In this document: piece after piece, positions 8,700-31,111 of the stretch
How positions within the stretch are numbered: position 1 is the stretch's first letter
How the letters are laid out: each line of letters opens with the position of its first letter
The notes under the pieces: generated by a model
Database searches by the model: none
What the model was told of the DNA's origin: nothing
The model's input: only the letters and a program-made list of their open reading frames with translations
Assembly: GCA_030611105.1 (NCBI GenBank)
Contig: JAUWQL010000013.1
Coordinates: 1-42,027, forward strand
Source of the DNA: Bacteroidales bacterium
GTDB lineage: Bacteria > Bacteroidota > Bacteroidia > Bacteroidales > UBA12077
Reading direction: 5' to 3'
Length of the DNA: 42,027 bases
Made by a program: the position numbers and the translations under genes

Positions 8700-9326
8700 A
8701 TGAACAGACTTCCAGAAAAAACAATAGGAAGATTAAGTGAATACAGAAGGACATTACTGAATTGTCTGGCAAAGGGTAAAACACATATTTATTCTCATGA
8801 GGTGGCAAATTTACATAATATAACAGCTGTTCAGGTACGCAGAGATATTATGCTTATAGGATATTCGTCAACACTTAAAAAAGGCTATGATGTAAAAGCT
8901 CTTATTGATGTTATAGGAGAAATAATTGATACTGAAGAGGGGTTAAATGCTGCAATTATTGGAATAGGTAATCTAGGACGTGCCATTACAACCTATTTTA
9001 ACGGAAAAAGAACAAAGCTTAAAATTGCAGCTACATTTGACACTGACCCGGAAAAATCAAATCGTGTTATTTCGGGTGTTAAGTGTTATCCAATGAGTGA
9101 ATTAAATAAAGTAATTAAGGAGCAAGATATTTCTATCGGAATACTTACTGTTCCTCCGGAAGATGCTGCTGCTGTTACAGAAATACTTATAATGGCAGGG
9201 GTAAAAGGAATTCTTAATTATACATCAACACCCTTAAACGTTTCTCCTAATGTACATTTAGAGGAATATGATATGATTACTTCGCTTGAAAAGGTTGCTT
9301 ATTTTGTAAAACAAAAAGAAGATTAG
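8700..9326 (+). CDS. rex: Redox-sensing transcriptional repressor Rex
   Basis: Winged-helix N-terminus (ITAVQVRRDIMLIGYS), Rossmann GIGNLGRAI, and TVPPEDAAAVTEILIMAGVKGILNY typical of Rex. Confidence 0.95.
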   Translation: MNRLPEKTIGRLSEYRRTLLNCLAKGKTHIYSHEVANLHNITAVQVRRDIMLIGYSSTLKKGYDVKALIDVIGEIIDTEEGLNAAIIGIGNLGRAITTYFNGKRTKLKIAATFDTDPEKSNRVISGVKCYPMSELNKVIKEQDISIGILTVPPEDAAAVTEILIMAGVKGILNYTSTPLNVSPNVHLEEYDMITSLEKVAYFVKQKED

Positions 9327-10446: not shown

Positions 10447-11160
10447 TCACTCCATCACATCCCAAATTTTATTTTTCAGCTCAATAATTTCAGGGTTATT
10501 CAATGTTCTGATTTTGTTATTGATAGTAAACTTTTCTTTAATTTTTACAGGAGCTTTGCTAAAAACATATATATCATTTCCAAGTAGTAATGCCTCATCA
10601 ATATCGTGTGTAACAAAAATCACAGTACGTTTATCGGCTTGCCATATTTGGCGAAAAGCTTTTATCAGGTTGAGTTTTAGTTTTAAATCAAGAGCTTTGA
10701 GAGGTTCGTCCATTAAAATTAAATTGGATGGATACGAAAAGGCACGTACAATAGCCACCCGTTGTTTCATCCCGCCACTTAACTTCGAAGGATAATAATC
10801 AGCAAAGTCTTCAAGTTCAACTAATCGAATGTATTTTGCAGCAATCAAATCTTTTTTTTCTTTTGAATATAAATCTTGTAAAACAAAAGCAATATTTTCT
10901 TTTACGGTTTTCCATGGAAGAAGTCTGGGCTCTTGGAAAATGTACGAAATTATTTTATCGTTGAATCCTGAAAATTTTCCTGAATCTGCCTTTATTGTAT
11001 CACTGATCATATTTAATAAGGTTGTCTTTCCACAACCCGAAGGGCCCAGAATACAACTAATCGTATTTTCCTGAAACTCAATATCGAAATCCTGAAAAAG
11101 ATTTATATCCTGAAATGATTTATATAGATTTTCAATTTTAAGTGCCATGTTTACTTCCAA
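10447..11160 (-). CDS. ABC transporter ATP-binding protein (SsuB/TauB-like)
   Basis: Walker A GPSGCGKTT, signature LSGGMKQR, Walker B LILMDEP. Confidence 0.92.
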   Translation of the reverse strand: MEVNMALKIENLYKSFQDINLFQDFDIEFQENTISCILGPSGCGKTTLLNMISDTIKADSGKFSGFNDKIISYIFQEPRLLPWKTVKENIAFVLQDLYSKEKKDLIAAKYIRLVELEDFADYYPSKLSGGMKQRVAIVRAFSYPSNLILMDEPLKALDLKLKLNLIKAFRQIWQADKRTVIFVTHDIDEALLLGNDIYVFSKAPVKIKEKFTINNKIRTLNNPEIIELKNKIWDVME

Positions 11161-11903
11161 ATAACAATTAGTTTTTCTATTCTACGAATAATCATTTCAA
11201 ACAAATAACTTATAATAACAGCAATAATGGTCCATGCTATAACCTCATTTACAATTAAATATGTTTGTGCTGTTTGCATTAAAGTGCCAATTCCAAATTT
11301 AGGCTGGCTTAAAACTTCACCAATAATTATTGCCCTCCATCCAAAGCCCATAGCGCTGGATGCTCCCGAAAAAATAAAAGGTGTTATAGCCGGTAAATAA
11401 ACTTCTTTTACAATCTTAAGCTGATTAACTTTATAAATACGTGACATCTCAATTAAATCATGATCAACATTTTTTATTCCGTCAATAACATTGGTACAGA
11501 TAAATGGAAACATGGTTAAAAATGCAATAAAGACAGCAACAAGATCAACCCTGAACCAAATTAATGCTAAAAGGATTAAAGAAATTACAGGAGTTGAACG
11601 GATGGTAACAAGAATTGGCTTTAAAAAAGCATTGAATGATTTGTTAATGCCAGCCAAAACTCCTAACGACACTCCAAGAATAAAAGATATTATAAATCCG
11701 ATTATTCCACGAAGAACTGTAGCACCTACGATTACAATAAAGTTTTCCGAAATAAATAACTTAAAGGTCGCAATAACAGTAGATTCAGGCGAAGGTAAAA
11801 TTAACTCAGAACCATAAAGTACAGAAGCAATTTTCCATAAACCAATTAATATCAGTATTGATATAAGAGATATTATTCTGGTTTTAGAAAAAACATTTTT
11901 CAT
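11151..11903 (-). CDS. ABC transporter permease (SsuC/TauC-like)
   Basis: Hydrophobic multi-TM protein; STPVISLILLALIWF and SSAMGFGWRAIIIGEVLSQPKFGIGTLM (EAA-like loop); overlaps the ATPase gene start. Confidence 0.9.
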   Translation of the reverse strand: MKNVFSKTRIISLISILILIGLWKIASVLYGSELILPSPESTVIATFKLFISENFIVIVGATVLRGIIGFIISFILGVSLGVLAGINKSFNAFLKPILVTIRSTPVISLILLALIWFRVDLVAVFIAFLTMFPFICTNVIDGIKNVDHDLIEMSRIYKVNQLKIVKEVYLPAITPFIFSGASSAMGFGWRAIIIGEVLSQPKFGIGTLMQTAQTYLIVNEVIAWTIIAVIISYLFEMIIRRIEKLIVIWK

Positions 11904-11961
11904 TCGAAGTAATTATAATTTGATCGAAAATTACAAATAAAATTTGGTTTTAACTTTGTGA

Positions 11962-11998
11962 TCCCGAAAGCTTTTGGGACTTTGTGCGACTTTGTGGT
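11962..11998. repeat. Left arm of ~35-bp inverted repeat containing CCCGAAAGCTTTTGGGA palindrome
   Basis: TCCCGAAAGCTTTTGGGACTTTGTGCGACTTTGTGG; the reverse complement recurs at 13554-13589. Confidence 0.8.
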
Positions 11999-12059
11999 GA
12001 AAAAATCAACCCTTGATTAGAATTTAATAAGTTTCATTTTTACAGTACTTTTTATGAAA

Positions 12060-12452
12060 TTACTTGGTCAGGTGCTCATTGATTTTTTTAAGCAGGAAAT
12101 CAGGCCTAACGGGTTTAGAAATATAATCATCACAACCAAATTCCATGGCTATGGCTTCATCATCAGATAAAGCAAAAGCTGTAAAAGCAATAATCGGAAT
12201 ATTTCTGTTAACACTTCGTATGAATTTTGTTGCTTCCAATCCTCCCATTTCCGGCATTCTGATATCCATTAAAATAACATCAATATCAGGATTTTCCTTG
12301 AAAATATTAACTGCTTCTTCGCCATTTTCAGCATGAAAAATTTTAATCTTGGTTTTTCTCAATGCCATCTCAATGATTACATAATTATGTATTTCATCAT
12401 CAGCAATTAAAATGCTTTTTTTACTCCAATCGTATTTTATTGATGCATTCAT
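12060..12452 (-). CDS. Single-domain response regulator (CheY-like receiver)
   Basis: SILIADDEIHNYVII...VILMDIRMPEMGG...IIAFTAFAL...YISKPVRPD. Confidence 0.9.
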   Translation of the reverse strand: MNASIKYDWSKKSILIADDEIHNYVIIEMALRKTKIKIFHAENGEEAVNIFKENPDIDVILMDIRMPEMGGLEATKFIRSVNRNIPIIAFTAFALSDDEAIAMEFGCDDYISKPVRPDFLLKKINEHLTK

Positions 12453-12543
12453 GTTATTTTAATTTAAAACCTTAAAGGTATACGCTAATTTTAATAAAAT
12501 ATTAAAATACAGACTAAATTTAAGAAATATTTATGATTTTTTA

Positions 12544-13500
12544 TTAATTAAGATAAAAATTATCATCAGGAATTTTTCCACCGACAATATCAGGATTCAT
12601 TTCAAAGAAGATTTTCAAATATTCATTTATTTGATTTTTAATTTTGTTGGCCTCTTCAAAATTAAGGTTAGAACGGGGAATAGAAGATTTTGCCACTTCA
12701 ATATTGGGCAGGATATCATATTTGACAATTAATTCAGCAGCTTCATTTTTGTTTTTATTTACCCAGTTTGTTGATTGTTTATAGCTTTTCAATATTTCCC
12801 GCAACTTATCGGACTCGTTTTTTGCAAAATTAGTTTTAACAAGCAATGCAGTTTGAGCAATTGGAATATTGCTATTTACCTTCTGCCATTCTTTGTTTAA
12901 ATCAAATATTGGTACAACCTCTTTGTTTTTTTGCATAACCAAACTAACCAATGGCTCTGAAATTACTCCTAAATCAGCCTGCCCGGCAGCAACGGCATTT
13001 GCCAAATCAACATGAGTAGGAAAAGAGTAATCTAACTCAACATCTTTTTCCGGATTAATCCCATTTTTAATTAATAGATGTCTGAAAAGAACGTCGGGAG
13101 TCATTCCTTTTGCCATTAAGTGAATTCTTTTTCCTTTTAAATTATCCCAGTTTTGAATGCTTGTGTCGTTCCCAAATAAATATAAAGTTCCCCAAACCGT
13201 AATTGCTGCTAATTGATAATGTACATTTTTATTATAAAGTATAGCTCCCATGGTTGTGGGGAGTATTGCAAAATCAACTTCATTTTCAAGCATTAATTTC
13301 CGAACTCGTATAGGTTCATTATAAATTGTTATTTCAATATTAGCATTGGGAGTATTATTTAAGCTGTCAATCATTTTTACCATTCCCATAGCAGATGGCC
13401 CTTTTAGTGTGGCGATTTTTATTTTTTGGATTTCTGTTTGTTGTTTACAACTAATCAAAAATACAAGAAGTGAAAAAAATATAATAAAGATTTTTCGCAT
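12544..13500 (-). CDS. ABC transporter substrate-binding lipoprotein (NMT1/SsuA-like)
   Basis: Lipobox LVFLISC; AILPTTMGAILYNK, AVAAGQADLGVISEPLVS; same strand as the permease and ATPase genes. Confidence 0.85.
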   Translation of the reverse strand: MRKIFIIFFSLLVFLISCKQQTEIQKIKIATLKGPSAMGMVKMIDSLNNTPNANIEITIYNEPIRVRKLMLENEVDFAILPTTMGAILYNKNVHYQLAAITVWGTLYLFGNDTSIQNWDNLKGKRIHLMAKGMTPDVLFRHLLIKNGINPEKDVELDYSFPTHVDLANAVAAGQADLGVISEPLVSLVMQKNKEVVPIFDLNKEWQKVNSNIPIAQTALLVKTNFAKNESDKLREILKSYKQSTNWVNKNKNEAAELIVKYDILPNIEVAKSSIPRSNLNFEEANKIKNQINEYLKIFFEMNPDIVGGKIPDDNFYLN

Positions 13501-13636: not shown

Positions 13637-13668
13637 TTTGCCGTTTAAACAAATACTACATATCTTTG
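13637..13668 (+). promoter_or_regulatory. Bacteroidota-type promoter TTTG-N20-TATCTTTG
   Basis: TTTG 13637-13640, 20-bp spacer, TATCTTTG 13661-13668: exact fit to TTTG/TAnnTTTG. Confidence 0.65.
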
Positions 13669-13683
13669 TTAAATAATTAACAG
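13666..13683. promoter_or_regulatory. Candidate Rex operator 3 (TTGTTAA-ATAA-TTAACAG)
   Basis: 17 of 18 positions match TTGTTAA-N4-TTAACAA; overlaps the -7 element of the promoter at 13637-13668. Confidence 0.8.
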
Positions 13684-13706
13684 TAGTATTAATCAAAACT
13701 TTCTGA

Positions 13707-13728
13707 GAAACAGAAGTATATCTGTTTC
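13707..13728 (+). other. 5'-leader hairpin GAAACAGA-AGTATA-TCTGTTTC
   Basis: Perfect 8-bp stem, 6-nt loop, between the predicted transcription start and ATG 13765. Confidence 0.65.
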
Positions 13729-13764
13729 AAGGTTAAAGAATAAATCTAATCCGGAGGAAATCTG

Positions 13765-14028
13765 ATGGAAAAGAGAATTGGATCTGCACTTATTTTAATC
13801 GAAAGCACCGACGTAGTTCAGCAAATGAACGAAATTGCTTTCAAACATTCCAACATTATTATTGGTCGACAAGGTTTACCGCGTAGTAACGGTCAAAATA
13901 TTATTTCTCTGGTTCTTGAAGGTACAACAGATGAGATTGGTTCTCTAACCGGTCAGCTTGGACGCTTAAAAGGCATTCAGGTTAAGTCAGTACTCTTAAA
14001 GAACCGAAATAATGAAGAAGACACTTAA
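13765..14028 (+). CDS. TM1266-family iron-only hydrogenase system putative regulator
   Basis: MEKRIGSALILIESTDVVQQMNEIAFKHSNIIIGRQGLP...ISLVLEGTTDEIGSLTGQLGRLKGIQVKSVLL; preceded by GGAGG at 13753. Confidence 0.88.
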   Translation: MEKRIGSALILIESTDVVQQMNEIAFKHSNIIIGRQGLPRSNGQNIISLVLEGTTDEIGSLTGQLGRLKGIQVKSVLLKNRNNEEDT

Positions 14029-16405
14029 ACTTTTATTTTTCCTGTTAATCTCTTTTAGCTCATTTGCGCAACAGTATGAGTTAAAGGGAATTGTAATGGA
14101 TTCCGAAACTAATGAGAACTTAGGCGGTGTTCATATACAGTTAATCAGTCAAAATCAATCTAATAACTATTATTCAATCTCTAATTTAAAAGGAGAATTT
14201 AATATTAAAGGGATTGAAAAAGGAGAATACCAAATTTTAACTTCTTATGTTGCTTATAAAAAATTCACAGAAATTAAATTGATAAATTCTGATACTCATT
14301 TTGATCTCCAGTTAGAAAAAGAATTAATTAATCTGGGCGAAGTTATTGTAAGCAGTATGCGACAGAACCAAATGATAAAGGAAGTTCCTGTTCCTTTGGA
14401 AATTGTTGATCAAAAACAAATTGAGTTATCGTCTTCGTTTACAGCTTCCGATATTTTGGCGCAGGAGCCGGGAGTGGCGTTAAGTCGCGATGGTGTTTGG
14501 GCTACAGGTATTAACATACGAGGTTTAAGTCAGCAACGAATTGTGATGTTAGTTGATGGCAACAGAATTGAAACTGCCACAGATTTAATGGCTTCAATGT
14601 CGTTTTTTGATATGGATGATATTAAGCGAATTGAAGTAATAAAAGGAGCTTCATCATCACTATACGGAACTGGTGCAATGGGCGGTATTGTTAATGTAAT
14701 AACTAACGAAGGCTATTTTAATTCATCTACGTATTTTAATGGCCGCTTTAATACAGGATATAGCACTGTTAATGATTTATTTACCAGAAAGCTAACATTC
14801 AATTCGGGATCAAAAAAATGGTATGCCAGCATTAGTGGCTCAATGCGTGATGCAAATGATTTAAAAACGCCTGAGGGAACATTAGAAAATAGTCAGTTCG
14901 AAGATAAAAGTATTTCTGCAACGGCAGGTTTTAAAATAAAAGATAATCATATTTTAAAATTAAAATACCAATATTTCGATGCTAATGATGTTGGTATTCC
15001 CGGTGGTGCTGCTTTACCCGGTCCTTCAACGGCAACTTATACCGATGCAAAACGACAGATGTTTTCTGCCAATTACGAAATTAAAGATATTTCAGAATCA
15101 TTCAGATTATTGAATTTCCGATATTTTCATCAATATATTTTGAGAGATGTTGATTTGATTCCGAACATATCAACTGTTACTCCCACATCTATTACTACAC
15201 CTGAGTTATTTACACCAAGTGGTGAACATATAACCGATGGAATTCAAATTCAAAGCGATTGGAGTTTTAGTGAAAGTAATTATTTTATTGCAGGTATTGA
15301 TGTATGGAGAAGAAAATTAACAACCAGCCGTGAAAAGTATATTCGGGTTGATGTATTGGATTCATTAGGAAATATTACTGTAACGAATAATATTGAGCGT
15401 GGCGAAACTCCTATTCCTGAATCTTGTTTTGGAAGCGCTGGTTTGTTCTTGCAGAACGAACAAAAGTTTTTAAATGATGATTTAAAATTGATTATTGGTG
15501 GCCGTTTAGATGGAATACGAATTGCCAATGAGCAAGCTTTTGATTACGATTATTTAATTATAAATGGTACAAGAAATGATTCGCCACCAAACCAACGAAT
15601 TACATTCGAAGAGAACGAAGAATATAAAATATCGTGGAGTGCTAATTTAGGCATTTTGTATGCACTCACTAATGATATGGATTTAAGTTTAAATACCGGG
15701 CGATCATTTCGTGCACCTTCATTGGAAGAAAGTTTTAAATATATCGACCTCGGTAATATGGTTCGATTGGGTGATCCAAATCTTGATCCTGAAAAAGGAT
15801 ATTCGATTGATTTAGGATTACGAATTTGGAAACCAAAATTCAATTTTAAAGTGAATGGTTTTGTCAACTGGCTTTCGGATATGATTGTTGAAGAACCCGG
15901 GGAGTTTATTTATTCTTATACAACAGGTGTTGTTGATACTATTCCTGCTTTAATAAATGCAAATGTCGATAAAGCAAGACTATATGGAGTGGATATGAGT
16001 TTTCAGTATAACTTTTATAAGAATTTTGTTTTACACGGTTCAGGATCGTATGTTAGGGGAGAAGATACCAAAAACGAAACCAATTTACCTCTAATTCCTC
16101 CAATGAATGGTAGATTAGGTTTAAAATACAATTTTCCAAAATATTTTGGTGTGGATTTAATTGCCATCGGATTTGCCGATCAAAATAAAGTAGCCGATGG
16201 TGAATCAGAAACCAAAGGTTTTGCACGATTCGATTTTATGATTCATTCAACTTTAATCAATATCGATTTTGCCAAACTGCAATTATTTGGAGGTGTGGAA
16301 AATATTGGAGATAGGGCTTATAGCAATCACTTGTCAACAAACCGTGGAGCTATAGATATCGAACCCGGAAGGAATTTTTATATTAAAATGAAAATATTGT
16401 TTTAA
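14012..16405 (+). CDS. TonB-dependent outer-membrane receptor
   Basis: Signal peptide, carboxypeptidase-like N-domain, plug (DILAQEPGVALSRDG...INIRGL...VMLVDGNRIE...IEVIKGASSSLYGTGAMGGIVNVIT), barrel, C-terminal F. Confidence 0.93.
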   Translation: MKKTLKLLFFLLISFSSFAQQYELKGIVMDSETNENLGGVHIQLISQNQSNNYYSISNLKGEFNIKGIEKGEYQILTSYVAYKKFTEIKLINSDTHFDLQLEKELINLGEVIVSSMRQNQMIKEVPVPLEIVDQKQIELSSSFTASDILAQEPGVALSRDGVWATGINIRGLSQQRIVMLVDGNRIETATDLMASMSFFDMDDIKRIEVIKGASSSLYGTGAMGGIVNVITNEGYFNSSTYFNGRFNTGYSTVNDLFTRKLTFNSGSKKWYASISGSMRDANDLKTPEGTLENSQFEDKSISATAGFKIKDNHILKLKYQYFDANDVGIPGGAALPGPSTATYTDAKRQMFSANYEIKDISESFRLLNFRYFHQYILRDVDLIPNISTVTPTSITTPELFTPSGEHITDGIQIQSDWSFSESNYFIAGIDVWRRKLTTSREKYIRVDVLDSLGNITVTNNIERGETPIPESCFGSAGLFLQNEQKFLNDDLKLIIGGRLDGIRIANEQAFDYDYLIINGTRNDSPPNQRITFEENEEYKISWSANLGILYALTNDMDLSLNTGRSFRAPSLEESFKYIDLGNMVRLGDPNLDPEKGYSIDLGLRIWKPKFNFKVNGFVNWLSDMIVEEPGEFIYSYTTGVVDTIPALINANVDKARLYGVDMSFQYNFYKNFVLHGSGSYVRGEDTKNETNLPLIPPMNGRLGLKYNFPKYFGVDLIAIGFADQNKVADGESETKGFARFDFMIHSTLINIDFAKLQLFGGVENIGDRAYSNHLSTNRGAIDIEPGRNFYIKMKILF

Positions 16406-16625: not shown

Positions 16626-18053
16626 ATGAAATTTTATCCAGAAGAATACAGAATTAAGGATCAGCGAATGAAACCTTTTATTGATCCTGAAGAAATTTGG
16701 GATTATTTAAACAACACCGAATCGACAAAGGAACGAGTTCGAGAAATTATTGCAAAATCATTAAATAAAGAGCGATTAAATTTAGAAGAAACGGCAGTAC
16801 TGGTTAATGCGAAAGATCCAGAATTAATTGAGGAAATTAAACAGGGAGCAAAAACATTAAAAGAAAAAGTTTACGGAAACCGGATTGTTTTATTTGCTCC
16901 ATTATATGTTGGAAATAAGTGTACAAACAATTGTAAATATTGTGGTTTCAGAGTAACAAATAAAGATGCGGTACGTCAAACACTTTCAGATCAGGAACTG
17001 ATAAAAGAAGTAGAAGCACTTGAAGATAACGGGCAAAAGAGATTAATACTGGTTTATGGAGAGCATCAAGATTATTCTCCTGAATTTATTTCCGAAAATG
17101 TTAAAACTGTATATAGTGTAAAAAAAGGAAATGGTGAAATTCGTCGTGTAAATATTAATGCCGCTCCATTGGATATTGATGGTTTCAGAATCGTTAAGGA
17201 ATCAGGAATCGGTACTTACCAGGTTTTTCAGGAAACATATCATCCTGAGGCATATGCAAAATATCATTTAGGCGGTAAAAAGAAAGATTTCGATTATCGA
17301 TTAACTTCCTTAGATCGTGCTCAGGAAGCGGGATTAGATGATGTTGGAATAGGGGCTTTATTTGGATTGTACGATTGGAGATATGAGGTGTTAGCAATGA
17401 TTCGTCATACTAATCACTTCGAAGCTTGTTATAATGTTGGCCCGCATACACTTTCATTTCCAAGAATTCAAGATGCGTCAGCTATTGATGTTGATCCTAA
17501 ATATATGGTTAACGATGATGATTTTGTCAAATTAATTGCCATATTAAGATTAGCAGTACCTTATACCGGAATGATTTTAACAGCCCGTGAATCAATTAGA
17601 GTTCGCCGTGAAGTAATGCAGTTTGGTGTTTCGCAGATAGACGGTGGTACTAAACTGGAATTAGGATCTTACCATGAAAGTCAGAACGAAGACCAAAACC
17701 TGAATCGCGAACAGTTTGCAATTAATGATAATAGATCATTAGCCGAAATTATTGATGAATTAATAGATAATGAATATTTACCATCGTTTTGCACTGCTTG
17801 TTACAGATTAGGTAGAACAGGAGAGCATTTTATGGAGTTTTCGGTTCCCGGATTTATAAAAAGATATTGTACTCCAAATGCTATTTTAACTTTGGCTGAA
17901 TATCTCGAAGATTATGCAACGCCTGAAGTTGTGGAAAAGGGATGGAAAATCATTGATAGAGAGATGGCAGACTTGGACAACTTTAAGCGCGTTGAAGAAT
18001 TACAAAATAGATTGGGTAGAATTAAGAGTGGCGAAAGGGATATGTATTTTTAA
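16626..18053 (+). CDS. hydG: [FeFe] hydrogenase H-cluster radical SAM maturase HydG
   Basis: Radical SAM CTNNCKYCGF, ThiH-like body, and C-terminal auxiliary cluster motif FCTACYRLGRTGEHFMEFSVPGFIKRYCTPNA. Confidence 0.96.
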   Translation: MKFYPEEYRIKDQRMKPFIDPEEIWDYLNNTESTKERVREIIAKSLNKERLNLEETAVLVNAKDPELIEEIKQGAKTLKEKVYGNRIVLFAPLYVGNKCTNNCKYCGFRVTNKDAVRQTLSDQELIKEVEALEDNGQKRLILVYGEHQDYSPEFISENVKTVYSVKKGNGEIRRVNINAAPLDIDGFRIVKESGIGTYQVFQETYHPEAYAKYHLGGKKKDFDYRLTSLDRAQEAGLDDVGIGALFGLYDWRYEVLAMIRHTNHFEACYNVGPHTLSFPRIQDASAIDVDPKYMVNDDDFVKLIAILRLAVPYTGMILTARESIRVRREVMQFGVSQIDGGTKLELGSYHESQNEDQNLNREQFAINDNRSLAEIIDELIDNEYLPSFCTACYRLGRTGEHFMEFSVPGFIKRYCTPNAILTLAEYLEDYATPEVVEKGWKIIDREMADLDNFKRVEELQNRLGRIKSGERDMYF

Positions 18054-18318: not shown

Positions 18319-18582
18319 ATGAAAGAAAAAAGAATTATTGGTATAAATGTTCTCGATCGCATTAAGGAAGCGGGAAGAACCCAGAAAGTACTAAGCAAAT
18401 ATGCAACTTCAATAAAAACTCGTTTAGGGTTTCACGAATTATCTGAAGATGTTTGTAGTAGAAATGGATTTGTGATTTTAGAATTAACCGGAAAAAAATC
18501 AGACTGGGATATGCTTGAAAATGAGCTAAATGAAATAGGAGGAATAAATATTCAGAAAATGATTTTTGACTTGAATAAATAA
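18319..18582 (+). CDS. TM1266/NikR-C-like small ligand-binding protein, Cys-containing paralog 1
   Basis: KRIIGINVLDRIKEAGRTQKVLSKYATSIKTRLGFHELSEDVCSRNGFVILELTG...; paralogous to the next gene. Confidence 0.6.
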   Translation: MKEKRIIGINVLDRIKEAGRTQKVLSKYATSIKTRLGFHELSEDVCSRNGFVILELTGKKSDWDMLENELNEIGGINIQKMIFDLNK

Positions 18583-18613
18583 TTTTCGTAACTTGATAAG
18601 CTAAAATTTAATT

Positions 18614-18874
18614 ATGTCTAAAGAAACCAGAATCTTAGGTATTTTAATTACCGACAGGCAAAAAGAAGCAGGTAAAGTACAAAATGTACTTACTAAATAT
18701 GGTTGCTCTATTAAAACCCGTTTGGGTTTGCACGAAGTAACAGATAATGTTTGTAGTACAAGCGGATTATTGTTACTGGAACTAATCGGGGATATATCAG
18801 AAATGGATAAACTCGAAAATGAGCTGGTTGTCATTGAGGGCACTCAAACTCAGAAAATGATTTTTGTGGATTAA
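18614..18874 (+). CDS. TM1266/NikR-C-like small ligand-binding protein, Cys-containing paralog 2
   Basis: TRILGILITDRQKEAGKVQNVLTKYGCSIKTRLGLHEVTDNVCSTSGLLLLELIG...QKMIF. Confidence 0.6.
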   Translation: MSKETRILGILITDRQKEAGKVQNVLTKYGCSIKTRLGLHEVTDNVCSTSGLLLLELIGDISEMDKLENELVVIEGTQTQKMIFVD

Positions 18875-23195: not shown

Positions 23196-24296
23196 CTATT
23201 TTAGTCTTCTTTCAATAGATGCCGCATATACCATTGCAACTACCCTGAATAAAAGATGTCCAAACTTTGTATAAGGCAAATAAATAATAATAAACCAAAC
23301 ACAAACCAGGTGGAAAAAATATAGATGGTATGCCAATTGCCAGTTTAAAAATCTTGCTGCTTCAACGATAACACCTGAAATGGTTAGTAAGAAAAGTGAA
23401 ATTAAAAATAACCAGTCAGTATAAGTACTGTTTCCGAAATCTTTTTTATTGAAAATTCTGTTTGTTATCATAATTCCTATTCCGACAAAAAGCATTATGG
23501 CCGCTACATTTCCCAAAATCTTGAATGGATTTGTTAATTCTAATGGATAATTATGTGTTACTGCTGCATAAATGGCAAACGCCGTAACAAAAAGCAATAA
23601 AATAAATCCGTAGAATACTAAGAAGTGTGCAATCTTTCTTGTTTTTTGAGCAGAACAAGAACCAAAATTAGAATGAAGAATGATTTCTTTTCGTATTGAA
23701 AATAGGTTCTTAATAAAATTTCCTTTTGGTTTAACATCAGGATTTTGCTTTTTCATATCTTCCCGGAAATTTCTTAAACCTATAATTCCAAGTATAATTG
23801 TTAAAAACCATAAAAAAGAAAAAGAGCCGTTAAGCCAGGCATGTGGAAAGAATTTGGAGTAATTTACCGGTCCTTCAGGAATTTGCAATGTTCCTGCCAT
23901 AAATAAAATTAAAGAAATTATGATCACAGGAATTAAAATAGCCACAGGTAACCATTTAGGATTATTTAATATTTTACCTAAAAATTTAGGCTTGGCATAA
24001 TGCTGGTAACTAATTTCCCGAATAGCAGAAAATACATCAGAAGGATTTACTCCGCGTGGGCAATGTGTACTGCAATCTCCACACTGATGACATAACCAGA
24101 TATCTGTGTTCCCAACCAATTTATCTTTCATTCCCCAACCTGCCCAAATCATTTCTTTTCTTGGAAAAGGCCTGTCATCAGGAGCAAGTGAACAAACAAC
24201 AGAGCAATTACCACACTGCATACATTCGTTCAACGAAGACTTACTTATTTTCTTAAGTTCTTTTTTAAATTCTATGTTTGGTCTTACTTCAATCAT
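23196..24296 (-). CDS. qmoC: Quinone-interacting membrane-bound oxidoreductase subunit QmoC
   Basis: HdrC-like 2x[4Fe-4S] (CMQCGNCSVVC, CHQCGDCSTHCPRG) plus a HdrE/NarI-like membrane domain. Track starts at 24368; M at 24296 is the likely start. Confidence 0.9.
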   Translation of the reverse strand: MIEVRPNIEFKKELKKISKSSLNECMQCGNCSVVCSLAPDDRPFPRKEMIWAGWGMKDKLVGNTDIWLCHQCGDCSTHCPRGVNPSDVFSAIREISYQHYAKPKFLGKILNNPKWLPVAILIPVIIISLILFMAGTLQIPEGPVNYSKFFPHAWLNGSFSFLWFLTIILGIIGLRNFREDMKKQNPDVKPKGNFIKNLFSIRKEIILHSNFGSCSAQKTRKIAHFLVFYGFILLLFVTAFAIYAAVTHNYPLELTNPFKILGNVAAIMLFVGIGIMITNRIFNKKDFGNSTYTDWLFLISLFLLTISGVIVEAARFLNWQLAYHLYFFHLVCVWFIIIYLPYTKFGHLLFRVVAMVYAASIERRLK

Positions 24297-24339
24297 CTTT
24301 CTTAAACTCAAAACTTTAAACTCAAAACTCGAAACTAAC

Positions 24340-26472
24340 TTACATATCTTTAAACGGATTTGGCCCAATCAGTTCAATTTCTTCAACATAATTATTAATA
24401 ATATTCGGAATCTTATAATAATCTGTTATTTCAACAAATTCTGTTCTTATTCTTTCAGGCTCCAGCATCATGGTTTCCAATGTTTCCTGAATATTTTCAC
24501 CACGGGTTTCAGTCAGCTCGCTTCCGTGAATAAAGTGACACTGGTAATCATCTCCGGGTTTACAGCCAATTTGCAATATGCCGTCAAATCCCTGCGACAG
24601 AGCATCTGATATCCAAACTTTGTTTATCGATCCAATACATCTGACAGGAATAACCCTTATGTATGGACTATATTTTAACCCTTTTTGTCCTGCCATATCA
24701 AAAGCAGGATAAGCATCGTTTTCACAAACAAACACAAGGATTCTTGGTTTTTCTTCAAATTCATCAGGTATTTCAACCGATTTAATCATTGCCGATACAC
24801 TGTTAATTGAATAATCGGCAAAGCTAATTACTCTCTCAGGGCAAGAACCTACACAAATTCCACAACGTCGACAACGATTTGGGTTTGGCAAAGGAGTTCC
24901 TTTTTCATTCTCATCATATGCACCAAACGGACATTCTTCAGTACATCGTTTACAGTCAGTACATCTATCCAGATATAATTCAGGATAAGATTTATCGCCT
25001 GATCGTGGATGAACAGCTTCGCCACGTTTTGTTGCCTCGATGGTCTGAATTGCCTTTAACATTGCACCTGTTGCATCTTCTTTACTTGATGCAATATCCA
25101 TCGGAGCTCGTAAGCTACCTGCTGCATATATTCCGGTTCGTCTTGTTTCGTAAGGGAAACAAATAAAATGCGAATCGGAAAAATCATATTTTAATTCCGG
25201 TAAGCCTTTTCCTAATCTGTAATTCAAATTCAAATCCTCAGTTCCTGCCGGCACCATTCCGGTTGCCAGTACTATCATATCAACCGAAAGCGAAATGTCC
25301 TCACCTAATAAAGTGTCTTTTACATTAACTTTTAAATTGTTATTGTCCTCAGTTATTTCTTCAATCTCGCCTTTTGTGAAAAATATTTGATCATCCTTTT
25401 GTACTTCCTTATAAAATTCTTCGTACAAACCCAAAGTACGAATATCCTTATATACTATAAATACATTTGATTCAGGACTTAGATCACGAATATATTTAGC
25501 CTGTTTCAGACTTGTTCCACAACAAAAATTAGAACAATAGGGCAGATGATCTTTATCCCTTGAGCCTGCACATTGAATAAATAAAATGTTTTTCGGTAAA
25601 GCTTTAACAGAGTTATTTTTAACTAATTCTTCAAATTCAACATTGCTTAAAACATTAGATTTACCATATCCCAGATGTGATAATTTGCTTGCATCATAAG
25701 GGTTCCAGCCCATTGATGTAACAATTGAACCTACCGTAATCTTTTCTTCTTTCCCGTTTTGCAGGCCCGCCTGCCGGACGAGCAGGGAAACTTCGAATTG
25801 TCCTGGCTGGCCGTCAATTCTATTTATTGTAGTTGATGTATATATCTTAATATTATCATATTGTCCAAGTTCTTTAATTCTGTCATTAAGTTCAGGATCT
25901 GTTAAGGTATCATATGGTGCTCTGTATGGAATTTGTTTGTGTAATTTATTTAACCAGCCACCCAATTTTTCTTCTTTCTCGATTAGATGAACCGTGTAGC
26001 CTGCTTTTGCTCCTTCAATAGCCGAAGTTATTCCGGTAATTCCGCCACCTACAACTAAAATTTCAGAACTTATATTCTCGGCTATAAAAGGTTTCGGAAC
26101 TTCAATATTATTAACTTTTGTGATTGACATGCGAAGATAATCTTCTGCTGCCATTTGTGTATCTTCTTCACCAGGCTCATAACACCATGCAACTTGTTCT
26201 CTTAAGTTTGTTCTTTCAAGAATTATATTTTCAGGAAAATTAAAAATCTCAGTTTTTGTTCTGGGTGAGCAGGCAGCTATAACAATTCTATCCAGATTTT
26301 CATTTTCAATATCATTGTTAATTAAATCAAATCCTTCAACTGAACATAGCGAAGAATGATTTTTGCAAATTGCAACATTGTGTTCCGAAGCTACCTGACT
26401 AAGCTTTTCAATATCTATACTTTTGCCTATTTCGCAACCGGAACATATATAGACGCCTGTTTTTTTATCCAT
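24340..26472 (-). CDS. qmoB: QmoB (HdrA-like flavoprotein with C-terminal MvhD-like domain)
   Basis: VVGGGITGITSAIEGAKAGY, FIQCAGSRD...LPYCSNFCC, CTDCKRCTEECPFG, CRRCGICVGSCPE, C-terminal MvhD-like region. Confidence 0.92.
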   Translation of the reverse strand: MDKKTGVYICSGCEIGKSIDIEKLSQVASEHNVAICKNHSSLCSVEGFDLINNDIENENLDRIVIAACSPRTKTEIFNFPENIILERTNLREQVAWCYEPGEEDTQMAAEDYLRMSITKVNNIEVPKPFIAENISSEILVVGGGITGITSAIEGAKAGYTVHLIEKEEKLGGWLNKLHKQIPYRAPYDTLTDPELNDRIKELGQYDNIKIYTSTTINRIDGQPGQFEVSLLVRQAGLQNGKEEKITVGSIVTSMGWNPYDASKLSHLGYGKSNVLSNVEFEELVKNNSVKALPKNILFIQCAGSRDKDHLPYCSNFCCGTSLKQAKYIRDLSPESNVFIVYKDIRTLGLYEEFYKEVQKDDQIFFTKGEIEEITEDNNNLKVNVKDTLLGEDISLSVDMIVLATGMVPAGTEDLNLNYRLGKGLPELKYDFSDSHFICFPYETRRTGIYAAGSLRAPMDIASSKEDATGAMLKAIQTIEATKRGEAVHPRSGDKSYPELYLDRCTDCKRCTEECPFGAYDENEKGTPLPNPNRCRRCGICVGSCPERVISFADYSINSVSAMIKSVEIPDEFEEKPRILVFVCENDAYPAFDMAGQKGLKYSPYIRVIPVRCIGSINKVWISDALSQGFDGILQIGCKPGDDYQCHFIHGSELTETRGENIQETLETMMLEPERIRTEFVEITDYYKIPNIINNYVEEIELIGPNPFKDM
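25761..25787. repeat. GC-rich palindromic element inside qmoB
   Basis: gcaggCCCGCCTGCcggacgaGCAGGga: local GC-rich inverted repeat encoding VRQAGLQ within qmoB. Confidence 0.55.
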
Positions 26473-26492
26473 TTAATTTAATATTATTTTTT

Positions 26493-26956
26493 GCCACTAA
26501 GTCACTAAAACACGAAATTCCACAAAACATTAAAAAACAAACCGTTTGATTCCTTGTCCAATATTTGTAACGTTAAAATTTATCAAATAACCCAGTCTAT
26601 TATTTGTTAGTTTTAAATGACTTAGTATTTGTGCATCCCAAACAGGATTGACCGTTTCCAGAGCTTTTAACTCACAAATAATTACGTCTTCAACTAAAAC
26701 ATCTAATCTTAGACCTTCTTCAAATGTCAATCCATCGTACACTATAGGAATATTTACCTGTCGCTTATAATTTAATCCACGTTTTGTTAATTCATGACAA
26801 AAGCAAATTTCATAAACTTTTTCAAGTAATCCGGGACCTAATTCTTTATGTACAGTATATGCGGCATCTACAATCTTTTTACCAATAATCTCAAGTTCTT
26901 CAGGAATTGGCTTGAAATACTTTTGGTGGGATTTCGTGTTTTCGTGATTTGGTGGC
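26493..26956 (-). mobile_element. GxxExxY cassette flanked by ~36-bp terminal inverted repeats
   Basis: Left 26493-26528 and right 26921-26956 are inverted repeats, about 30 of 36 matching by eye. Confidence 0.75.
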
Positions 26957-26958
26957 AT
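26530..26958 (-). CDS. GxxExxY protein
   Basis: IVDAAYTVHKELGPGLLEKVYEICFCHEL...VIICELKALETVNPVWDAQILSHLKLTNNRLGYLINFNV. Confidence 0.93.
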   Translation of the reverse strand: MPPNHENTKSHQKYFKPIPEELEIIGKKIVDAAYTVHKELGPGLLEKVYEICFCHELTKRGLNYKRQVNIPIVYDGLTFEEGLRLDVLVEDVIICELKALETVNPVWDAQILSHLKLTNNRLGYLINFNVTNIGQGIKRFVF

Positions 26959-26989
26959 ATTTTAATTCAATTTTGATGCTTTTTAATTG

Positions 26990-28222
26990 TTAAATGTATT
27001 GAATCGCTTTTAATGCTGCAGCAGTTGCATCTTTTACCGATGATGAAACATCCATTGGCTTTCTGCTGCAGGCAACAGGGAAAATTCCTTCAGATTGTAA
27101 ATCAGATATAAAATGATTTTGGTCTCTATTAAGGTTTAGCTTAATATTAGACGGTACAATTCCCGTGGCAAGAACAACCATGTCTGCCTCGTATTTTATT
27201 TTTTTACCTGAAAGAACATCTTCAGCTTCCAGAATTAAGTTATTCGATTCTGTTTCAGAAATTTTACCAACTTTTCCTTTAATTAATTCGATATTCTTAT
27301 TCTCTTGTACTTTAGCCAGAAAATCTTCATTACGGCCAGCAACACGCATATCTATATAGAAAATATTTATCTTGATATTTGGATATAATTCCTGAATGCT
27401 TAATGCATGCTTTAATGATGCTGAGCAACAAACAGCCGAACAATAAGGAAGATTATTTTCATCGCGCGATCCTGCACACTGAACAAAAGCAATTTTGGCA
27501 GGTTCTGAATTATCAGACACTCTCAACAATTTATTGTGTCCGGGGCCATTAGACGCTATAAACCTCTCAAATTCAACATTTGTAATTATATTTTTTGATG
27601 TTGAATAATTTAAGTTATCAATTTTTGATGCATCGTAATTCCTCCATCCTGTAGCAATAACTACAGAGCTAGCTTCTAAATCAAAAACTTCTTCTTTTGC
27701 AGATAAATCGATGGCATTATACTCGCAAACTTCAACACACTTATTGCAGGATTCTTTTTTGCAATATTCATCATCAATACTGAACTTATAGGGAAAAGCC
27801 ATTTCGTGTGGTAAATAAATTGCTTTTGTTTTGGTAAATCCATAGTTGAACTCATCTGGTCTTTCTTCGGGGCAAACATCAAGGCATTTTCCACATGCTG
27901 TACAATTATTTTTTACATATTGAGGAGCTGTTTTAAGTGTAACTTTAAAATCTCCTTTTTCCCCTGATATTTCCTTAACTTCAGTTGAAGTATAATATTT
28001 GATTCGTGGATTTTGTTTTATCCTACGAAAGTTAATTTCCAGTCCACAAGTTGGCGGGCAAAGTTTCGGGAAATAATTATTAAACTTAACTACATTCCCA
28101 CCCAAATATGTATTTTTCTCGATAAGAATAACTTCTTTTCCAACTTCAGCAATTTCAACAGCAGTTGTTATACCACTTATACCACCACCAATAATAAGAA
28201 CAGGCTTTTGGTTTTTATACAT
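26990..28222 (-). CDS. qmoA: QmoA (HdrA-like flavoprotein)
   Basis: VLIIGGGISGITTAVEIAEVGKEVILIEKNTYLGGNVVKFNNYFPKLCPPTCGLEINFRR; [4Fe-4S] motifs; AFVQCAGSRDENNLPYCSAVCC. Confidence 0.93.
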   Translation of the reverse strand: MYKNQKPVLIIGGGISGITTAVEIAEVGKEVILIEKNTYLGGNVVKFNNYFPKLCPPTCGLEINFRRIKQNPRIKYYTSTEVKEISGEKGDFKVTLKTAPQYVKNNCTACGKCLDVCPEERPDEFNYGFTKTKAIYLPHEMAFPYKFSIDDEYCKKESCNKCVEVCEYNAIDLSAKEEVFDLEASSVVIATGWRNYDASKIDNLNYSTSKNIITNVEFERFIASNGPGHNKLLRVSDNSEPAKIAFVQCAGSRDENNLPYCSAVCCSASLKHALSIQELYPNIKINIFYIDMRVAGRNEDFLAKVQENKNIELIKGKVGKISETESNNLILEAEDVLSGKKIKYEADMVVLATGIVPSNIKLNLNRDQNHFISDLQSEGIFPVACSRKPMDVSSSVKDATAAALKAIQYI

Positions 28223-28253
28223 TCAAAATCTTGTTTCTAGTTACTCGATACTA

Positions 28254-28283
28254 GTTACTTGTAATTTACCAGCGACAAGTAAC
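28254..28283. repeat. Intercistronic inverted repeat GTTACTTGT...ACAAGTAAC between aprA and qmoA
   Basis: Perfect 9-bp arms, 12-nt loop; further AGTTACT/AGTAAC units adjacent. Confidence 0.75.
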
Positions 28284-28301
28284 CAGTAACAAATTGTAAA
28301 T

Positions 28302-30191
28302 TTATGTAAGTTCTTTTATTTCCCTTTTAATCATTTCCCACTCACCCGTTTCAGGATCCCATTTACAGTTAGCAAAAGCTTTCCATTCTTCCTTCATTGT
28401 AGGATGATCGGTTCGGAAATAATATCCCGGCCATCTGGTTTCTTCACGGAATAACATGGTTCTGATATGCGATTCTGCTTGCCATAGACGATGAATATTC
28501 TCCCAACAACGCATTAATTCATTTGTATCTTTAGCAGCAAGTTTTTCAGAATCTTCTTTCATAAATTCTAAAAACTCAAGGCCTTTTTCAAGCAATGCTT
28601 TTGATGTTTTAAAATGGACTGATGCTCCACCGGCATATTCATCCATAATTTTCTGTAATCGGAACATAAACATTTTAGGCTTGATGAAATTAGGATTTAC
28701 ATCTTCATCATTAGTGTAATCTTTATGTTCGTCAAAAATAGCAAGTGGTTGTAAAATTCTTTCTTTTAATTTTTTGATTTTTTCATCATCAATATTTGCT
28801 GAATCAGGATTATCAACAATAAATGCTAAAGCAGCTTTAGCAGCAATCCGGCCTTCGGTAAACGAACCGGATGAGAATTTATGAGATGAAGCTCCTGAAG
28901 CATCACCCGCAGCAAATAAACCTTTTATGGTTGTCATATTATCATATCCCCAATGATAATCATCTGATGGAGATAAATCTTTTGGTCCGCTAACCCATGC
29001 TCCTGAAGCTCCGGAGTGCGAGCTTATAAAGTAAGGTTCGCAAGCAGAAATTTCCGATGGTGTTTCTTCCGGCGAAATATTATGTGAAGCCCAGTTTAAA
29101 GCTTGGCTAACAGTCATATCTAAAAAGTCTTCCCAGGCTTCTGATTCCAACTCTTTCATTTTTCTTTTAGCTTCTTTTTCATCAGTGATATCAGCCATTA
29201 ACTCTTTAATTGCTTCATCTGTTTTCATGTAAATAGGGCCATTTCCTGCTTCCAGTTCCTGAAGCATTAGGTAATTTCTAAGATTAGTGGGTGTTGGTTT
29301 TGATGTTCCGTACGGAGCCCAGTTTTCAAGTTCAGCAGCACGGGTTTCCATATAATCTTCACCTTTGGCATTGGTAGCTTTCGCTTTGAATAATAAGAAC
29401 CATGCACCAACAGGACCATAAGAATCTTTAAAACGAACAGGAACAAAACGTACTTCCTGACAGGTCATTTCGGCACCTGCTTTAAGTGTAAAATAAGTAC
29501 TTGCTCCGGAATTAAACGGAGGATACCAAGATCTTCCTAAACCTTCGCCAACCGAACGAGGACGGAAAATATGCACTGCACCACCCATTACATCCAGCAC
29601 AGCATTTGCTTTAAATATGTAAAATTTATTTTCGCGAACACTGAAACCTGCTGCACCAACACAACGATCGCCATCCATAATTGGCTCAGTAATGAATATC
29701 CTTTCGTAATATTCACCATTATCACCCAATTCTTTTAAGGCATTTTTAGCAGCTTCAGAAACTATATTTTTATACGATTCACCATGAATCATGATTTGCC
29801 ATCGGCCTTCATTTACATAATTTCCTTCTTCGTCTTTCCAGATTGGTAAGCCCCATTTTTCGAAAAGGTGAACTGATGAATCAACATGGCGGGCAATGTT
29901 AGCAACCAAATCGTCGCGGGTAATTCCCATTAAATCATTTTTAACGTAATTCACATAATCTTCTATTGTGTTTTTACCGTTTTTTAATCCTAAGTAAAGA
30001 TTTATGGCAGAAAGTCCCATTGCTACAGCACCACTACGTTCCATAGCTGCTTTATCAACAACAGTTACTTTTTTATTATGTTGTTTTGCCCAGTGTGCTG
30101 CTTCAAATGCAGCTCCGCAAGCAGCCATTCCACCACCAAGAATTAATAAATCGGTTTCTATAATTATGGTTTCAAAATTTTCAGTTATCAT
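28302..30191 (-). CDS. aprA: Adenylylsulfate (APS) reductase alpha subunit
   Basis: DLLILGGGMAACGAAFEAAHWAKQH...VVDKAAMERSGAVAMGLSAINLYLG...SSGSFTEGRIAAKAA...RTDHPTMKEEWKAFANCKWDPETGEWE. Track start 30233; likely start 30191. Confidence 0.95.
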   Translation of the reverse strand: MITENFETIIIETDLLILGGGMAACGAAFEAAHWAKQHNKKVTVVDKAAMERSGAVAMGLSAINLYLGLKNGKNTIEDYVNYVKNDLMGITRDDLVANIARHVDSSVHLFEKWGLPIWKDEEGNYVNEGRWQIMIHGESYKNIVSEAAKNALKELGDNGEYYERIFITEPIMDGDRCVGAAGFSVRENKFYIFKANAVLDVMGGAVHIFRPRSVGEGLGRSWYPPFNSGASTYFTLKAGAEMTCQEVRFVPVRFKDSYGPVGAWFLLFKAKATNAKGEDYMETRAAELENWAPYGTSKPTPTNLRNYLMLQELEAGNGPIYMKTDEAIKELMADITDEKEAKRKMKELESEAWEDFLDMTVSQALNWASHNISPEETPSEISACEPYFISSHSGASGAWVSGPKDLSPSDDYHWGYDNMTTIKGLFAAGDASGASSHKFSSGSFTEGRIAAKAALAFIVDNPDSANIDDEKIKKLKERILQPLAIFDEHKDYTNDEDVNPNFIKPKMFMFRLQKIMDEYAGGASVHFKTSKALLEKGLEFLEFMKEDSEKLAAKDTNELMRCWENIHRLWQAESHIRTMLFREETRWPGYYFRTDHPTMKEEWKAFANCKWDPETGEWEMIKREIKELT

Positions 30192-30269
30192 GATTTTAAT
30201 TTTAAATAACAATACACAAATTACAAATAACAATTAATACTCAATTCTAAAATATCAAAATCCAAAATT

Positions 30270-30638
30270 CTATTTTGATTTTTCGATAATAGATGAAAAT
30301 ATTTTTTTGAGTTCAACTGCTTCTTGATATAATATTTTTAAATTTTCATTATTATTTTCATAAGTAGAATCATTAATTAATCTAAGCCAATATGCACTTT
30401 CCTTTGCTTCTTTTCGGCAAATCTTAATTCTATGTACAAAATCTTTTTTGCTAAATGATTCGTTTGCTTCAATATAATTAGCACCAACTGACCCGGATGA
30501 TCTTATTAATTGTCTGATGTCATCTTCATTAAAGAAATACTTTTTTACTTTTTTCATTTCTTGCCTAACATTTTTTGCAAAAAGATAAGTTCTTTCTTCA
30601 AGATCGTAAACTGGTTTGTTATTTGAAATATTGGCCAT
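30270..30638 (-). CDS. Four helix bundle protein (S23 / 23S rRNA intervening-sequence family)
   Basis: YLFAKNVRQEMKKVKKYF...LIRSSGSVGANYIEANESFSKKDFVHRIKICRKEAKESAYWLRLI. Confidence 0.9.
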   Translation of the reverse strand: MANISNNKPVYDLEERTYLFAKNVRQEMKKVKKYFFNEDDIRQLIRSSGSVGANYIEANESFSKKDFVHRIKICRKEAKESAYWLRLINDSTYENNNENLKILYQEAVELKKIFSSIIEKSK

Positions 30639-30676
30639 TGGAATTTAATTGAAAATTATTTTTTGTTTTTTGGAAA

Positions 30677-31111
30677 TTATTTTTTGTAAAGTTCTGTCCC
30701 TAATGAATCAGGTTCAGTCCTAAGCAAAGGATTTTTTAAATCATCAGTTCCGGTTTCCATTCCTGTTTTTGGATCAATGCTTCCTTCAGGTGTTGTTCTT
30801 ATAGGGAATTTAAATCGTTTTATCTTTTTATTCCGGAATTTTACCGACCACATTATTGAGTCAGTGCTACGTAAAGGTTGAACCACTGCACCTAATGGCA
30901 TAAAATCTGCATATCCGCGAATTTCAATAGCTTGAGTAGGACAAATTTTTACGCAACTATAGCATTCCCAACACATATCAACAGCACGATTATATGCTTT
31001 GTTTTTTTCTTTATCTAAGACCATTAAATCATTTGGACAAATATATTGGCAGGCAGTTTTATCTAAAGCCTTGCAGCCATCACACTTTTCACTTATTACG
31101 AAGCTAGGCAT
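30677..31111 (-). CDS. aprB: Adenylylsulfate (APS) reductase beta subunit
   Basis: MPSFVISEKCDGCKALDKTACQYICPNDLMVLD...MCWECYSCVKICPTQAIEIRGYADFMPLGA...IMWSVKFRNKKIKRFKFPIRTTPEGS. Confidence 0.96.
   Translation of the reverse strand: MPSFVISEKCDGCKALDKTACQYICPNDLMVLDKEKNKAYNRAVDMCWECYSCVKICPTQAIEIRGYADFMPLGAVVQPLRSTDSIMWSVKFRNKKIKRFKFPIRTTPEGSIDPKTGMETGTDDLKNPLLRTEPDSLGTELYKK

Follow-up and report, generated by a model that had tools for sequence, protein, structure and literature searches.

A putative Rex operator and a conserved structured leader RNA at the TM1266-TonB-hydG operon of Bacteroidales

Results

Gene content of the hydrogenase locus

We analyzed a 42,027-nt stretch of DNA from a Bacteroidales bacterium of the UBA12077 lineage (contig JAUWQL010000013.1, hereafter the window), which carries hydC-hydB-hydA, encoding a group A6-like NADH-linked [FeFe] hydrogenase, along with genes for a hydrogenase-domain histidine kinase, two response regulators, the redox-sensing repressor Rex and RibF. 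The Rex protein (8700-9326, + strand) scores over the NF003995 cut-off and has Rex relatives in PDB; a second Rex gene over cut-off lies outside the window (G000:C27:47929-48522), giving two such loci in this genome. Beyond a set of ABC importer genes on the minus strand (10447-13500, with the ATPase at 10447-11160, the permease at 11151-11903 and the substrate-binding protein at 12544-13500), the gene order on the plus strand is TM1266, a TonB-dependent receptor, hydG and two CPF_0552-family genes. The TM1266 family protein (TIGR03959; 13765-14028) scores 76.7 bits against a curated cut-off of 60.8 bits and has a PDB relative in 2nzc, the TonB-dependent receptor gene (14012-16405) overlaps its end by 17 nt, and the H-cluster maturase HydG (16626-18053) scores 499.8 bits against TIGR03955 (curated cut-off 312 bits). 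The tandem CPF_0552-family genes 3' of hydG (18319-18874, +) are distantly related to TM1266. Elsewhere in the window, we also observed an aprB-aprA-qmoA-qmoB-qmoC-like cluster on the minus strand (23196-31111), i.e., adenylylsulfate reductase and its quinone-interacting complex in a Bacteroidales genome, with aprA, aprB and qmoC scoring over their cut-offs.

A conserved palindrome overlaps the predicted promoter

Upstream of TM1266 lies a Bacteroidota-type promoter (13637-13668, +) composed of TTTG at 13637-13640 (-33), a 20-nt spacer and TATCTTTG at 13661-13668 (-7). A putative Rex-type operator, TTGTTAAATAATTAACAG (13666-13683, +), covers the last three bases of the -7 box and differs from the Rex consensus TTGTTAANNNNTTAACAA at one position; it is a two-fold site of the type TTGTTA-N6-TAACAA or TTGTGA-N6-TCACAA, and the -7 consensus it overlaps is conserved among relatives, which places it on the predicted promoter. 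The original prediction, made from this sequence, had pointed to a 17-of-18 Rex-type palindrome over the -7 element of an exact TTTG-N20-TATCTTTG promoter, and we confirmed both its coordinates and its sequence. It had also called this operator the third, an apt description given two tandem imperfect palindromes, GTGTTAATAAAATAACAA and ATGTTTATTAAATAACAA, before hydC (619-653, +; copies at 619-636 and 636-653). In the window and its relatives, the two hydC copies are 17 bp apart and stand immediately 5' of TATATTTG.

Within this single genome, pattern searches yielded a moderate signal, with about 13 distinct sites at one mismatch or fewer in 3.77 Mb, and judgement on the palindrome therefore rests on its conservation in relatives. 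At up to two mismatches the palindrome was not enriched genome-wide (179 matches vs. 229 for a reversed control), and at up to three mismatches the window held 20 matches against 15 expected. We accordingly rejected the window's own genome as a source of significance for the operator, there being no excess over the reversed control, and likewise rejected the promoter consensus as evidence, as the pattern alone occurred twice in the window with 2.1 occurrences expected.

Within the family, TM1266 was found in 24 of 25 genomes, and every relative with a readable TM1266 start carries the palindrome at -89 to -99 from that start, usually with zero to two mismatches and in all cases directly 3' of a -7 box that is kept in the family alignment. 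Across the order, we searched 72 loci bearing the leader RNA described below (one per genome, duplicates removed) and found TTGTTA-N6-TAACAA, allowing a single mismatch, in 20 of them, compared with 0.3 expected from dinucleotide shuffles. Only a spacing of 6 works among spacings 0-12, the true half-site ranks first of 30 permutations (20 vs. 3), and the palindrome is found in none of 11 loci without the leader. Two geometries recur, with the palindrome either joined to the -7 box at its 3' end or placed between -33 and -7. The genomes surveyed are mostly MAGs, so single absences carry little weight. In one genome (G017, locus L189), a perfect second palindrome, TTGTTATGGCTATAACAA, stands at -77 of hydG, with no TonB gene between TM1266 and hydG.

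Rex is the likely regulator

By these comparisons, the palindrome at 13666-13683 is genuine, and many Bacteroidales have conserved it. Coincidence in AT-rich DNA, which the lack of genome-wide enrichment would allow, is already refuted by the order-wide conservation and spacing specificity, and we give it next to no weight.

For Clostridiaceae, PMC5367854 and PMC9600882 quote a Rex box, TTGTTAANNNNTTAACAA, from Ravcheev et al. 2012, and the palindrome matches it. The rex gene lies within the window, and in several other families it adjoins TM1266-hydG. Rex over cut-off was present in 20 of 21 genomes from other families that carry the palindrome at one mismatch or fewer, vs. 14 of 38 genomes with TM1266 and the leader and no palindrome (Fisher p = 7e-6; p = 0.008 once genomes are collapsed by family and state). 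The sole palindrome genome without Rex, G159, is a 92% complete MAG whose congeners carry the gene. Many genomes with Rex and the leader have no palindrome, and there is little sign of the palindrome at rex itself.

CRP/FNR-family sites share the 16-18 bp two-fold layout of the palindrome, and TTGTTA-N6-TAACAA is formally compatible with binding by such a regulator in place of Rex. That assignment does not predict the 20/21 vs. 14/38 co-occurrence with Rex, nor does it sit well with rex genes within or adjoining the locus in several families, with the identity of the palindrome to the Clostridiaceae Rex box as quoted in the papers above, or with targets belonging to an NAD-linked hydrogenase, and we consider it unlikely. 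Taken with the palindromes before hydCBA, the published box match, the rex gene in the window and the Rex co-occurrence support the originally proposed Rex operator on the TM1266-TonB(-hydG) promoter, and Rex is the likely regulator of these genes, with binding inferred from these sequence patterns.

Compared with Clostridiaceae Rex operators, the Bacteroidales sites have the same half-sites, spacing, promoter overlap, hydrogenase gene targets (under putative Rex control) and a Rex gene in the genome. They differ in a Bacteroidota promoter whose -7 box is fused to the operator, in the tandem pair at hydCBA, in the TM1266-TonB-hydG operon as target and in the lack of clear rex autoregulation.

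A structured leader RNA spans the TM1266 start codon

Between the operator and the TM1266 start codon, where the family alignment contains near-identical blocks, we identified a conserved structured leader RNA of about 75 nt (13699-13773, +) whose 3' end overlaps the first TM1266 codons. The original prediction, whose operator reading is supported, had missed this element. Its consensus reads UCUGA-[stem-loop]-AAGGA, a 9-21 nt linker, UCURAUCCRRAGG, 4-8 nt and CURAUGGARAAG, so that the invariant core runs into the AUG. The stem-loop, P1 (GAAACAGA / TCTGTTTC; 13707-13728, +), is flanked by CUGA and AAGG and exhibits the compensatory base changes of a structured RNA: in a broad alignment, two-sided changes occur at 8 of 8 pairs, with 169 two-sided cells vs. 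50 in shuffles, although the broad alignments were fitted to covariance models and their base-pair counts lean towards the model. A first, structure-free MAFFT alignment (A1) already gave three two-sided pairs. The P1 covariation score is 0.565, compared with at most 0.123 for slid partners, and covariation is strongest at the columns of P1 and of an outer pair, UCU/GGA. Taken alone, the window's leader folds only slightly better than shuffles (z -1.4).

A second hairpin, P2 (13751-13768, +), is predicted to pair CCG with the UGG of AUGG and GG with CU, enclosing an SD-like GGAGG and the start codon; it has no covariation support, as the start codon itself forms its 3' arm. We rejected translation of an upstream ORF, as well as translational coupling through a UGA or UAA stop overlapping the AUG at CURAUG, since the linker (9-21 nt) and the gap between AGG and CU change in length with no regard to reading frame.

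None of the papers in the library searched for leaders of hydG, TM1266 or Bacteroidales hydrogenases described such an element, and no Rfam 15 family matches at or above its gathering score at the leader. (One match to RF01687, Acido-Lenti-1, barely over the gathering score, occurred away from the leader at L172:1773-1818 on the minus strand.) Like the riboswitches and protein-binding leaders in Rfam, this RNA combines a covarying hairpin with invariant unpaired blocks in a 5' UTR and overlaps the start codon, but unlike the cis-regulatory leaders catalogued there it matches no family, is tied to one operon type and to TM1266 genomes, and is nearly always single-copy. HydG is a homologue of ThiH, whose gene is TPP-regulated. 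The leader shares the short strings CUGAGA and CUGAUC-GG with the TPP riboswitch but differs in element order and pairing, and in cmscan the window's leader is unmatched even at E-values up to 10.

The leader tracks TM1266

We built a first covariance model from 23 sequences and used a refined model across the order, with E-values from these models to be read as rough. The first model detected a single copy in each of 24 of 25 family genomes, with a weak second match (E 0.06) in G018, and also picked up distant copies elsewhere in the order. Across 394 sampled Bacteroidales genomes, the refined model detected the leader in 81, single-copy in all but two, and all 81 encode TM1266 over cut-off, a gene present in 93 of the 394. 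Among 179 genomes with hydG, 64 also have TM1266, and the leader occurs in 56 of those 64, compared with 0 of the 115 that have hydG without TM1266. An unfiltered search and by-eye reading of 16 hydG upstream regions from TM1266-negative genomes likewise found no leader. The distant copies across the order all lie at a TM1266 start or before hydG, and most of the upstream regions read for further TM1266 genes have the same leader architecture.

Family f8 separates the two genes: here TM1266 follows rex and is leaderless, and the leader stands directly 5' of hydG, where in two of three cases it retains the AUGGARARG block as a remnant. Together with the distribution, this arrangement indicates that the leader tracks the presence of TM1266 in the genome, not hydG, and that it could act on hydG alone; the 0 of 115 count led us to reject the leader as belonging to hydG as such. 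We also rejected spread outside Bacteroidales, as a class-level search gave only marginal scores and the matches outside the order had no TM1266 start there. The leader occurs in genomes both with and without Rex, which suggests a second control layer independent of Rex.

The TonB receptor and the ABC importer

Among 93 tabulated locus entries, in which some genomes are counted twice, the gene after TM1266 is a TonB receptor gene in 14 and hydG itself in 72. The TonB receptor is an optional operon member. The original prediction that a TonB importer belongs to a Rex/hydrogenase regulon holds in at least three families, f1, f23 and f44, each of which combines the palindrome with TM1266 and TonB. 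The recurrence of TonB 3' of the palindrome in these three families argues that its place in the regulon is no accident of one genome.

Several genomes with TM1266-TonB lack hydG (G027, G046, G067 and G095), and three more (G159, G256 and G271) have hydG matches below cut-off only. Most of the hydG-less TM1266-TonB loci whose surroundings were read are accompanied by an ABC importer of the window's type; in G027, TM1266-TonB and the importer lie in one apparent operon. At L208:10933-15883, TM1266, the TonB receptor, a substrate-binding protein, a permease and an ATPase follow one another on the same strand in an apparent single operon. At L206:4420-10781 (G067, without hydG), TM1266-TonB is followed by hypF-hypA-hypB, genes of [NiFe] hydrogenase maturation. 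These patterns suggest that the TonB receptor is best seen as part of a TM1266-tied uptake module.

HydA-like proteins were also observed in the hydG-less G046 (L201:10071-11957) and G256 (L204:13269-15008), still adjacent to rex, TM1266, TonB and the ABC importer. Their H-cluster L1 motif is altered, reading TSCSP or SFCP instead of SCCP, and this weakens the idea that hydG-less genomes keeping HydA-like proteins import an H-cluster precursor.

Discussion

Our main reading, to which we assign a probability of roughly 0.74, is that a Rex operator controls the TM1266-TonB-hydG operon and that the structured leader adds Rex-independent control, likely of translation. At low NADH, Rex dimers would occupy the -7 box and the predicted transcription start and block transcription; at high NADH, Rex would leave the operator. 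The tandem palindromes would put hydCBA under Rex as well, such that the NADH-linked hydrogenase and its maturation operon would respond together. The transcript would begin with the roughly 75-nt leader, composed of P1 (CUGA-stem-AAGG), the variable linker and the invariant core UCURAUCCRRAGG..CURAUGG, in which the start codon and its SD-like sequence lie. This leader would act as a cis-regulatory RNA, most likely setting translation of TM1266 and the downstream genes independently of Rex.

What the leader senses can be read in several ways, and the evidence so far favors neither TM1266 nor a small molecule or metal over the other. The leader may be a riboswitch whose ligand is a metal or small molecule tied to hydrogenase maturation, or to the TonB/ABC cargo, with TM1266 merely the controlled gene. 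Such a role would fit its compact, aptamer-like build, in which one stem covaries, unpaired blocks stay invariant and the core lies over the start codon, and also its position ahead of importer and maturation genes (e.g., TM1266-TonB-SBP-ABC at L208 and TM1266-TonB-hypFAB at L206). Riboswitches usually spread to many operons, however, whereas we found no second unrelated gene class with the leader and no leader in any genome without TM1266, and this possibility is tentative. The same distribution (TM1266 in 81 of 81 leader genomes, the leader in none of 115 hydG genomes without TM1266) speaks for the alternative that TM1266, or a TM1266-metal complex, binds the leader and feeds back on its own operon and hydG. 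Family f8, where the leader stays on hydG and the relocated TM1266 beside rex has none, points in the same direction. Against this, the association is partly built in where TM1266 itself carries the leader, which leaves one family as the real test, and RNA binding is not known for TM1266, a small NikR-C/ACT-like protein; we regard feedback by TM1266 as equally tentative.

A static element for translation initiation, serving only to keep the start codon usable, would account for the invariant block around the SD-like GGAGG and AUG, but it would have no need of a long covarying hairpin so far upstream or of confinement to one operon type, and several members lose the SD core yet keep the remaining leader, making this the least probable of the three. 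In its specific form, the proposal that the leader is TM1266's RNA target holds that a small NikR-C-like metal or ligand sensor without a DNA-binding domain uses the leader to set translation of the hydrogenase-maturation or importer operon it belongs to, and in f8 that of hydG in trans; we put this forward as a speculation, a shade less probable than binding in general.

Under our main reading, two layers of control would act on H-cluster maturation in Bacteroidales: at the promoter, a repressor that responds to NADH, and at the start codon, a structured RNA. This leader RNA is new to Rfam, nearly always single-copy and confined to genomes with TM1266, and a TonB/ABC importer appears tied to the hydrogenase regulon, even in lineages without hydG. 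TM1266 is widespread, yet its annotation goes no further than "putative regulator," specifically a putative hydrogenase regulator. The operon's first gene is a member of this family over cut-off (TIGR03959, PDB 2nzc), but differs from the family as described in being linked with a particular RNA leader and, in some families, with a TonB/ABC importer in genomes lacking hydG. If the leader is indeed the RNA target of TM1266, the TM1266 family would gain a function.
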